Origin: Parcubacteria group bacterium GW2011_GWF1_45_5
GTDB taxonomy: Bacteria; Patescibacteriota; Minisyncoccia; UBA6257; Brennerbacteraceae
NCBI GenBank assembly: GCA_001001795.1
Contig: LCLB01000003.1
Coordinates: forward strand, 1-34,017
DNA length: 34,017 bases
Direction of reading: 5' to 3'
Positions 6,727 through 27,278 of this stretch are shown here, piece after piece. A model generated the notes under the pieces. The model did no database searches and had not been told where the DNA came from. It saw only the letters and a program-made list of their open reading frames with translations. How positions within the stretch are numbered: the stretch's first letter is position 1; the number at the start of each line of letters is the position of its first letter. Position numbers and translations under genes: made by a program.

Positions 6727-6770
6727 ATAAACAAAACAACCCCGACGTACGTCGGGGTTGTTTTGTTTAT
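6727..6770. terminator. Bidirectional terminator (44-nt perfect palindrome) between convergent genes
   Basis: ataaacaaaacaaccccgacgtacgtcggggttgttttgtttat: perfect self-complementarity with T-rich tract on each exit side; lies between the SPFH stop and the stop codon (6767-6769) of the convergent gene. Confidence 0.85.
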
Positions 6771-7459
6771 TGGACGAGTTCCAGAAATTTCTGTGTCAGC
6801 TTGGGGATATTGCTGTCGCCTTGGTAAAATGCTTTCCATACCATGACAATGTCGGCATCGTTAAAGATTGCCGATTGGATTTCTTTAAATTCGTCTCCGC
6901 CACCGATATCGATAAAAACAGAGCTGTAATTTCCTTTGATTTGTTTAATTTGATAGAAAGGTATCTGTTTTTCCTTGTTGTTTTGTGTTTCATCCACCCC
7001 GCGATGGAGCATGACAATAGTGGGTTGAGTAGGGAGTTCGCGCAGAACCGTAAGCGGATCCTTGATATTCATCATATCTATCAAGGAATCCATACGGTAC
7101 TGTGCAGAGAGTGAGATAAAGGCATTGAGCGTCGCTGTCGGTGCGGTTCCTACCGCGGTTACCGCATCCGCACCTGCGGCCTGGGCGAGATTAATCTCTT
7201 TTTCCGAAAGATCGGCGCATTTGATATCCGCTATGACATACAGATCCGGACGCCGGATTTTAAGCGCGCGCACCGCATCGATACCGAATTGTTTAATGAG
7301 GGGAGTTCCCGCTTCGAGCAGGATCCGATCCGAAGGCGGGATTTGGCCTGTGATGCGCAAAGCCTCATCCATCGTGTTATTCAGGGCGATGTGCAGATAC
7401 CGGGTGTGTGCCCTGAGTTTTTCCGAAAATGCCTCGAATGTTTTATGGTATTGCGCCAT
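6767..7459 (-). CDS. OMP decarboxylase/HUMPS superfamily protein, 3-hexulose-6-phosphate synthase-like (paralog 2)
   Basis: LEAGTPLIKQFGIDAVRAL...VIADIKCADLSEKEINLAQAAGADAVTAVGTAP (DxKxxD motif), MLHRGVDE. Confidence 0.75.
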   Translation of the reverse strand: MAQYHKTFEAFSEKLRAHTRYLHIALNNTMDEALRITGQIPPSDRILLEAGTPLIKQFGIDAVRALKIRRPDLYVIADIKCADLSEKEINLAQAAGADAVTAVGTAPTATLNAFISLSAQYRMDSLIDMMNIKDPLTVLRELPTQPTIVMLHRGVDETQNNKEKQIPFYQIKQIKGNYSSVFIDIGGGDEFKEIQSAIFNDADIVMVWKAFYQGDSNIPKLTQKFLELVQ

Positions 7460-7460
7460 A

Positions 7461-8117
7461 TTATATCTTAAGAGTACTTAAAAACTGATTTGCCAATACA
7501 GTTGTTTCGCGAGGATTGGTGTTAATTGCTTCCCAAATAACCGCTATGTCTCCGCCGTTAAAAAATACCCGGCGGACGTCACGGGGCGTTTCTCCTCCCG
7601 CAATCGCAATTGTAGTTGTATAACTTCCTTTGATACGACCACAATCCTGATAGGGAATTTGTTTTTCAGTATGGAGCCGCTCTTCCACTCCCAGATGCAG
7701 CATTACATACGGCGGTATGGTTTTAAGTGATCCTAAAATTTCAAACGGGAACGTCACGTTGAGCATGTCCACGATGGCGTCTATACCGAGTTCGGCACTC
7801 TTTTCTATGAACTCATTCAGAGTCTCTACAGGAGCGGTTCCCAGAACCGTGGCCGCGTCGGCCCCCGCATTTTTGGCTATAAAGATCTCTTGTCCTCCGC
7901 GATCCATGCATTTCAAATCAGCGACGACATAGGCGACCGATCCGACTTTCTGTTTCCAGGTTTGTTTTATGAGCGAGATACCGCGGCTGCCATAGCGTTT
8001 GATAAATGAGGTTCCCGCCTCCAAGATGATTCGTTTATCTGCAGGGAGGGATCCGATAATCGACTGTACTGTTCCAAGGTCATTATTTAAGGAGATTTGG
8101 AGTTTCTGTTTGCTCAT
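7461..8117 (-). CDS. OMP decarboxylase/HUMPS superfamily protein, 3-hexulose-6-phosphate synthase-like (paralog 1)
   Basis: LEAGTSFIKRYGSRGISLI...VVADLKCMDRGGQEIFIAKNAGADAATVLGTAPVETLNEF (DxKxxD motif), MLHLGVEE, AIAGGETPRDV. Confidence 0.75.
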   Translation of the reverse strand: MSKQKLQISLNNDLGTVQSIIGSLPADKRIILEAGTSFIKRYGSRGISLIKQTWKQKVGSVAYVVADLKCMDRGGQEIFIAKNAGADAATVLGTAPVETLNEFIEKSAELGIDAIVDMLNVTFPFEILGSLKTIPPYVMLHLGVEERLHTEKQIPYQDCGRIKGSYTTTIAIAGGETPRDVRRVFFNGGDIAVIWEAINTNPRETTVLANQFLSTLKI

Positions 8118-23775: not shown

Positions 23776-25511
23776 ATGTGCGGAATTTTGGGCGTAGCAC
23801 AATTTGAAAAACATGGCGTGACCCGGGAAGTGTTCGAAAGAGCGTTGGATACGCTGTCTCATCGAGGTCCGGACAGTTTCGGTATATTTTCCGATCAAGA
23901 AGTGTATTTGGGAAACAGGAGGCTGTCCATTATTGATTTGAGTCCCGGAGGCGGTCAGCCCATGAGCCTGAGGTGTAAAAAAACCCGGAAAAAATTTCAA
24001 CTAGTGTTCAACGGCGAGCTGTACAATTTTAAGGAGTTGCGGGTAATCCTGGAACAATCGGGACATGTCTTTCGGACCGGTTCCGATACCGAAGTTGTTC
24101 TGCATGCATTTGAACAGTGGGGAACAGATTCTTTTGAAAAATTAAGGGGGATGTTTGCTTTGGCCCTGTGGGATGAAGAAAAAAAGAAATTATTTCTTGC
24201 CCGGGATCGTTTTGGGATAAAACCGTTATATTTTTCGCAGAATCACGATTACTTTGCCTTTGCCTCGGAAATCAGAGCTTTGAAATCACTTATCGGGAAT
24301 CATGTTTCGATCCGTCAAGAGGCAATTTACGAGTTTTTAAGACAAGGTTATATATCCCAGCCCGGAACGTTTTATCGTGGTATCCGAGCCTTGGAGGCCG
24401 GGTCATTTCTTGTCGTTTCTTCTGACGGCATTGAGGCGGGGAAATTTTTCGATCTTATTTCGTATTATGATCAGGAAAAATATCCGCATTCTTTTGGAGA
24501 AGCGGTCGGCGAAGCGCGGAGCGTTCTTCAAGACAGTGTGCGTCATCATATGCTTTCCGATGTTCCTGCCGGTCTGAATCTCCGAACATACACGCGCTTG
24601 CAAGTTCTTTCAAAACAGATCACTACGACGTTCCGATCAGTGGTCTGGATTTTCTTGTTTTTCTTGAGAGGATTTTCGAATACATGGATCAACCAACCAG
24701 CGACGGGGTCAATACGTTTTTTGTATCTTTGGCGGCGAAACAAGCCGGATTGAAGGTGGTGCTTTCCGGGCTTGGAGGAGACGAAATTTTCGGAGGATAC
24801 CCGTCTTTTATTGATATTCCCCGTTTACGGAAAATAAATTTTGGTTTGCGTTCTTTCCGCAACTTGGGCGGGTTCGACGTTATGGCAAGATATCGCCCAT
24901 TCTGGGGGAAGGCTTCGAAATTGGAAGAGTTTTCGGGTGAACGTTGCGTTTCTGATATGTGGCGGGCTTATCGTTCCCTCTTTACCGGAAGGCAGATAAG
25001 AATGATTATGCCGGATACGCCGGGCGATATGGACGATGGCTCCGGGAAAGAAACTTTTTGCGAGAAAAAGCATTCCGTACAAAGCACGATTTCATACTAC
25101 GAGATGACCAGGTACATGAAAAATCAGCTTCTGCGCGACAGCGATGTATTTTCTATGGCGCATAGCGTTGAGCTCCGGGTTCCTTTTGTGGACGATTTTG
25201 TCATGAAGTTCGGTACTGCCCTGCCGGATTCCTATAAGATTTCCGGAGGCAAGACAAAACTAATTTTGAAGGAAGTGTTGCGTTCTTCCGTCCCGCGATC
25301 CATCCTGGAAGCTCCCAAGAAAGGATTTGTTTTACCGATTTCCCTGTGGATGAAAAATGAAGCCCAAGGGATTATCTGGGATGAGCTTGGATCTTCGGAG
25401 TTCTTCGATAAAAAAACCATACGGGATGTTTTGGGATTGTTCAAGAACAACCGAATTCATTGGTCGCGGGTTTGGTCATTATTTGTTTTACAGAGATTCT
25501 TACGGAAATGA
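23776..25511 (+). pseudogene. Asparagine synthase (glutamine-hydrolysing)-like gene, internally deleted and frameshifted
   Basis: N-terminal GATase domain (MCGILGVAQFEKHG...HRGPDSFGIF...FNGELYNF...DTEVVLHAFEQWG) in the frame of 23776; homology continues in the frame of 24684 from about 24579 (IHALASSFKTDHYDV...EYMDQPTSDGVNTFFVSLAAKQAGLKVVLSGLGGDEIFGGYPSF). The expected SGGxDS segment is absent. Confidence 0.88.
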
Positions 25512-26575
25512 TGAAGATTCTGTTTGTTTCTAATGATTTTTCGGGATTCGGCGGGATACAACAGGTAGTCCGTGATTTTCTCGCTATGGTTGAACCGTTA
25601 GCGGACCTTCGCGTTGCCATGTGCAAAGGGAACAGTTTTGTTCAAAAGGTCTTTTTTGTGTTAGAAGTCTTTTGTCAGTCATTGTTTCACCCCCCGGAAT
25701 TCATTATCTATAATCATATTAATTATTCTCCCGTTGCTCTTGTTTTATTCCGAATCACTAAAATTCCGTACGCATTAATGATATACGGGACAGATGCCTG
25801 GGACCTAAGAAACAAGATGAAAGTGCAAGCGATGCGGAAAGCACACTCCATTATTTCTTCTTCACGTTTTACCCAGTCCGTAGTGGAAAAGCAGCCGGGT
25901 ATCCTCTCAACGAAGTTCTTTATTATGGAGCCGACCATTGATACCGGCGTGTTTTCAGTGAAGAACGATTCTGAGATTATGGCATTGCGCGCATCACAGG
26001 GGTTATCCGATAAAAAGATTATTCTTTATGTAGGTCGGCTTTCGAAAAAAGATCAATACAAGGGATATGATTTAGTGGTAAAGGCGCTGCCGGCCGTACT
26101 AAAAAGGATACCTAATGCGATGTATGTGATTTTTGGCGCTGGCGACGATATGGGGCGAGTCAAAGAATTGGTTACGGAAAGAAGCTTGGAAGGCAAAGTT
26201 GTTTTTTCCGGAATATCGGATGAGAAGAAAATTCAGTATTATCAATCGGCCGACGTATTTATTATGCCTTCAACCGGAGAAGGATTTGGTATAGTATATC
26301 TTGAGGCCTTATCGTGCGGGACGCCTGTTATCGCGGGGGACATTGATGCTTCTTCCGAGCCGCTTTTAGGCGGAGAGCTGGGATTGCTGATTGATCCCCG
26401 GGATGTTCAACAAATTGCGAATTCTCTTATTACCGTATTGAGCGGAGAAGCGAACCCCCTTTTCTACCGTAAAGCATATCTTCACGATCAGGTCGTAAAA
26501 TATTTCGGACATTTGGCGTTCCAAGAGCGGGTACGTCATTATGTGCGCATTATCGAACATGAATTACAAAGATAA
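25508..26575 (+). CDS. Glycosyltransferase family 4
   Basis: MMKILFVSNDFSGFGGIQQVVRDFL...IILYVGRLSKKDQYKGYDLVVKALP...ADVFIMPSTGEGFGIVYLEALSCGTPVIAG; likely start 25508. Confidence 0.93.
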   Translation: MMKILFVSNDFSGFGGIQQVVRDFLAMVEPLADLRVAMCKGNSFVQKVFFVLEVFCQSLFHPPEFIIYNHINYSPVALVLFRITKIPYALMIYGTDAWDLRNKMKVQAMRKAHSIISSSRFTQSVVEKQPGILSTKFFIMEPTIDTGVFSVKNDSEIMALRASQGLSDKKIILYVGRLSKKDQYKGYDLVVKALPAVLKRIPNAMYVIFGAGDDMGRVKELVTERSLEGKVVFSGISDEKKIQYYQSADVFIMPSTGEGFGIVYLEALSCGTPVIAGDIDASSEPLLGGELGLLIDPRDVQQIANSLITVLSGEANPLFYRKAYLHDQVVKYFGHLAFQERVRHYVRIIEHELQR

Positions 26576-27278
26576 AATATACGATCGGTATGTCTCTTTG
26601 CAAACCAGCAACATACTTAAAATTCAAACATTTGCCGAATTTGAGAAGCAATTCCCTGTGTGGGACAAATATTTCGGGGATATCCTGACTTGTAAAGACG
26701 CGGCGATTGTTGATGTCGCCTGCGGGAATGGAGATCTTGTTCATTGGCTCAATACCAGAGGTTATAAGAATGTCGTCGGCATAGATATCAGTGAAGAGCA
26801 GGTTTCGGTTGCGCAAGGGTTGGGTTTGGGTAACGTTTCCCGGGCGGATTTTCGGGAATATCTGAAAGAGAAAATCGATTATTTCGATGCTGTTTTCGCT
26901 CTGGATATTTTGGAACATTTTCCCAAGGCAGAAATGCTGGAGGCGGTAGACCTGTTTTTCCGTTCTTTAAAGAAAGGCGGTCTTTTAATAATCAAAATGC
27001 CCAACGGCGATAGTCCGTTTTTTGGCAGATACGCGTTTGGCGATTTTACCCACGAAACTATCATGACGGACAGGAGCTTTAAAGAGGTTTTCTCTTTTAT
27101 CGGATTTAGAGAATATCAATTCAAGGAAGCGGGACCGATTCCCCACGGGGTATTTTCTTTTGTGCGATATTGTTTATGGCAATTGTCGCGTTTGGTGGTG
27201 AATGTTTATCTTCTGGCGGAAACAGGCAGGAGGGGCAACGTGCTTACGCAAAATATTATCGCGATCGCAAAAAAATGA
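26559..27278 (+). CDS. Class I SAM-dependent methyltransferase
   Basis: AAIVDVACGNGDLVHWLNTRGYKNVVGIDISEEQVSVAQ...YFDAVFALDILEHFPKAEMLEAVDLFFRSLKKGGLLIIKMPN; likely start 26559. Confidence 0.93.
   Translation: MNYKDKIYDRYVSLQTSNILKIQTFAEFEKQFPVWDKYFGDILTCKDAAIVDVACGNGDLVHWLNTRGYKNVVGIDISEEQVSVAQGLGLGNVSRADFREYLKEKIDYFDAVFALDILEHFPKAEMLEAVDLFFRSLKKGGLLIIKMPNGDSPFFGRYAFGDFTHETIMTDRSFKEVFSFIGFREYQFKEAGPIPHGVFSFVRYCLWQLSRLVVNVYLLAETGRRGNVLTQNIIAIAKK

Follow-up and report, generated by a model that had tools for sequence, protein, structure and literature searches.

The window analyzed here, a 34,017-nt stretch comprising the entire contig C3 of a 657-kb genome assembly (51 contigs, 96.6% complete), carries a single asnB-type glutamine amidotransferase gene that lacks approximately 109 nt relative to its family and changes reading frame at the same point. 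The missing segment includes the PP-loop (SGGxDS) of the ATP pyrophosphatase domain, and the gene as assembled encodes no working enzyme; it is either a broken gene of an ordinary kind or the result of a local error in assembly. We give an even chance to one very recent deletion of approximately 109 nt, fixed or segregating, that removed the PP-loop segment and shifted the frame, and this explanation and a local assembly error are about equally balanced. Under either cause, the synthetase function is lost, which is an ordinary outcome and nothing new in kind.

Translation revealed that frame 1 from position 23776 reads MCGILGVAQFEK...HHMLSDVPAGL on the forward strand, encoding an intact class-II glutamine amidotransferase domain (GATase_7, E = 3.6e-44) and the linker up to DVPAGL (23776–24576), an assignment also based on TIGR01536 and homolog alignment. 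This glutaminase half starts with MCGILG and possesses the catalytic Cys2. It is followed by an out-of-frame nonsense tail (24577–24753, forward strand) that terminates at the stop codon at 24751–24753. The family sequence resumes in the -1 frame at SESPNIHALASSFKTDHYDV, from 24573/24579, and the rest of the Asn_synthase domain (24573–25511, forward strand) runs from SESPNIHAL to the stop codon at 25509–25511, with alignment and translation revealing the LSGLGGDEIFGGY and SMAHSVELRVPFVDD motifs and Pfam matching positions 61–353 of the 354-position profile PF00733 (E = 1.5e-49). TIGR01536 was covered over positions 1–258 by the first half and 300–517 by the second half. No single continuous frame spans both domains: the -1 change falls at 24571–24580 (forward strand), a junction located by TIGR01536, alignment, and codon usage, where a strand, the PP-loop, and the following helix and strand (approximately 36–37 codons) were expected and are absent. 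The second called ORF (24684–25511, forward strand) begins at an internal ATG that aligned with the conserved Met of EYMDQPT and is not an independent gene start; the ORFs at 23776 and 24684 should be read and annotated as one interrupted asnB-type gene rather than as a separate glutaminase and synthetase. The sequence-only reading had described a clean class-II amidotransferase domain through HHMLSDVPAG followed by nonsense, and a synthetase domain in the 24684 frame from about 24579; the translations and the two Pfam matches agree with both descriptions.

The length of the missing segment was measured from the last L of VPAGL to the S of SPN in an alignment of the best 25 of the full-length homologs taken from 97 loci. 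This interval contained 37 residues in 18 of the 25 homologs, 36 in three, 40 in three, and 52 in one; the three nearest homologs (L018, L019, and L002) each had 37. With 2 bases left at the junction in the window, approximately 109 nt (3 × 36 + 1) are missing, and since this equals 1 mod 3, the -1 frame change is explained. The lost segment reads FLSGGIDSSAxVALA...TxSIxF in homologs and comprises the PP-loop together with the adjoining strand and helix. All 98 AsnB-type ORFs examined among the relatives retained the PP-loop; the first pattern detected it in 92, and inspection showed it as [VI]SGGLDSS in the other 6. Loss of the PP-loop segment and a net length change not divisible by 3, both proposed from the sequence alone, were thus borne out, whereas the accompanying figure of 40–60 missing residues was a mild overestimate of the 36–37 measured here.

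Outside the gap, 85 of 89 near-invariant positions (conserved in at least 95% of homologs) were retained, in keeping with the earlier impression that both flanks look conserved, and the four altered positions (I/L, Y/F, Y/W, and L/V) were all conservative. Within the Asn_synthase remainder, 38 of 40 such positions were retained. The 577 codons contained no stops, and in a simple neutral model this absence bounded unconstrained divergence at approximately 0.045 substitutions per site. The retained positions and the absence of stops therefore indicate either a very recent event or an artefact. Among 60 relatives, even the nearest AsnB genes showed no more than 44% identity over the second half.

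Codon usage was analyzed with a Viterbi procedure over the window and approximately 157 kb of the same genome (approximately 190 kb in total). A frame switch was placed within asnB between 24532 and 24607; the stop of the old frame lies 218 nt downstream, and this was the only clear mid-gene switch in the 190 kb sampled; the other flagged places had an old-frame stop at most 137 nt away and resembled ordinary gene ends or overlaps. The frame break is far beyond chance, with the codon-usage result in independent agreement, and the finding of a single clear switch indicates that the assembly is not generally indel-ridden. Nearby genes of the locus gave full-length domain matches where families exist. 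No N run was present at the junction, no junction repeat of 12 nt or more was found elsewhere in the contig, and the direct and inverted matches around the junction were short and at chance level; there is therefore no obvious repeat-collapse cause. Elsewhere in the window, a gene that we read from its translation as ribosomal protein S5 is directly followed by one that we read as L15, with no room between them for an L30 gene, and two tandem OMPdecase/HUMPS-family genes (6767–8117, reverse strand) lie beside the ribosomal protein operon. Together with the small genome and the comparable genome sizes across its order, the S5–L15 arrangement suggests that the bacterium belongs to the Candidate Phyla Radiation (CPR).

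A local assembly or consensus error, in which the organism's asnB is intact and approximately 109 nt were skipped during assembly, falls only just short of an even chance. A clean skip without overlap usually requires at least some reads carrying the junction, which counts against an error, as do the lack of an N run or long repeat at the junction and the absence of the segment from the rest of the assembly. Neither a second or intact asnB copy nor a displaced segment was found in the organism's own assembly; the Asn_synthase profile matched only one other protein of the genome, MnmA, an unrelated tRNA enzyme on contig C22, whose gene (SGGVDSS, positions 1–630 of locus L099, reverse strand) is truncated by the contig end. 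However, the complete absence of secondary decay is predicted equally by an artefact, and the conserved order of asnB, a GT4 glycosyltransferase gene, and a methyltransferase gene in two distant relatives bearing intact asnB genes suggests a functional cassette. Furthermore, metagenomic CPR genomes commonly contain local assembly errors, and one of 1.13 Mb had 13 of them before curation (PMC7111523); at that rate, approximately two errors would be expected in the 190 kb sampled, where one frame switch was seen, so an artefact is quite likely a priori.

The gap relative to the family and the frame change are shown by the sequence; under the deletion explanation, the short form would also be present in the cells. 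The parent, one asnB-type glutamine amidotransferase gene, would have belonged to a surface-polysaccharide locus, beside the GT4 and methyltransferase genes, and a very recent loss of approximately 109 nt would have taken out the ATP-pyrophosphatase segment and shifted the frame. The gene could then yield no more than a free glutaminase domain followed by nonsense residues, which would be incapable of ATP-dependent amidation. It is very unlikely that this putative CPR bacterium carries a genuine short allele segregating as an on/off variant for surface-glycan amidation. The causes put forward in the sequence-only reading, namely recent loss, a population variant, or an assembly error, fit everything measured.

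We consider it highly improbable that the gene is a functional variant, whether translated as two separate proteins or bridged by frameshifting into one protein that works without a PP-loop of its own. The intact glutaminase domain, a purine-rich stretch upstream of the ATG at 24684, and a weak -1 slippery heptamer (T_TTT_TTG) at 24717 are consistent with such a variant, but conserved residues of the parent protein account for this ATG and the T-run, which need no other explanation. Moreover, the PP-loop is present in all 98 relatives examined, the ATP site would be restored in neither product, and MnmA is the only other profile match in the genome. Programmed frameshifting would still leave the protein without its ATP loop and was rejected for that reason. 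Least probable of all is that two different asnB genes were joined into a chimera: the frame change does fall at a domain-internal point, but L018 (Nitrospirae) is the best full-length relative of both halves (41.7% and 41.3% identity), the 3' flanking genes also match its locus, and no second asnB exists in the genome, which together indicate one gene rather than a join of two.

Regarding function, the intact parent would be an AsnB-superfamily amidotransferase that depends on both glutamine and ATP. The missing PP-loop implies loss of ATP-dependent synthetase activity, since part of the core is gone and the synthetase half would be unable to bind ATP in the manner of the family. The sequence-only reading had predicted that sugar/uronate amidation would be abolished; the loss of the synthetase follows from the missing PP-loop, but a uronate (UDP-HexA) substrate is unsupported, with no member of the UDP-sugar dehydrogenase family UDPG_MGDP_dh_N (PF03721) found in the 96.6%-complete genome by a search that was positive in 13 of 14 control genomes. 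Literature searches on amidotransferases of O-antigens, the PP-loop of AsnB, and pseudogenes in Patescibacteria returned nothing. The AsnB homolog at L006 (contig C1 of G030), from a genome that is listed under the window genome's order, contained six in-frame TGA codons and gave an intact 628-residue frame under table 25 (TGA = Gly); that genome likely uses the Gracilibacteria-type code, whereas the window's genome uses TGA as a stop.

The window gene shares with AsnB-type amidotransferases (TIGR01536; GATase_7 + Asn_synthase), such as E. coli AsnB (PDB 1CT9), the N-terminal Cys2 glutaminase, the conserved linker, and the C-terminal motifs after the PP-loop; it differs in lacking the SGGxDS segment (approximately 36–37 residues) and in its broken frame. 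It also scored as a generic asparagine synthase. Both halves partially matched the XrtA/PEP-CTERM amidotransferase (TIGR03108) and N-acetylglutaminylglutamine amidotransferase (TIGR03104) profiles, but with scores far below the cut-offs, and on this evidence the gene belongs to neither family.

The closest comparison is with the asnB genes of Nitrospirae JdFR-85 (L018) and Aenigmatarchaeota CSMAG_516 (L019), which are alike in both halves (approximately 41–42% identity) and, unlike the window gene, full-length. In both loci, asnB is followed in the same order by a GT4 gene (25508–26575 in the window, forward strand; 38% identity to L018 and 33% to L019) and a SAM-dependent methyltransferase gene (26559–27278, forward strand; 47% and 40%), the ordered set spanning 23776–27278 in the window, 1109–5915 in L018, and 4080–10560 in L019. 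That this set recurs in one MAG each of Nitrospirae and Aenigmatarchaeota as well as in the window's small-genome bacterium suggests horizontal transfer of a glycan cassette, within which the deletion, if real, would represent a fresh gene loss. Between asnB and the GT4 gene, L018 and L019 have nucleotide-sugar genes of the GDP-mannose dehydratase or UDP-sugar epimerase type, which the window lacks.
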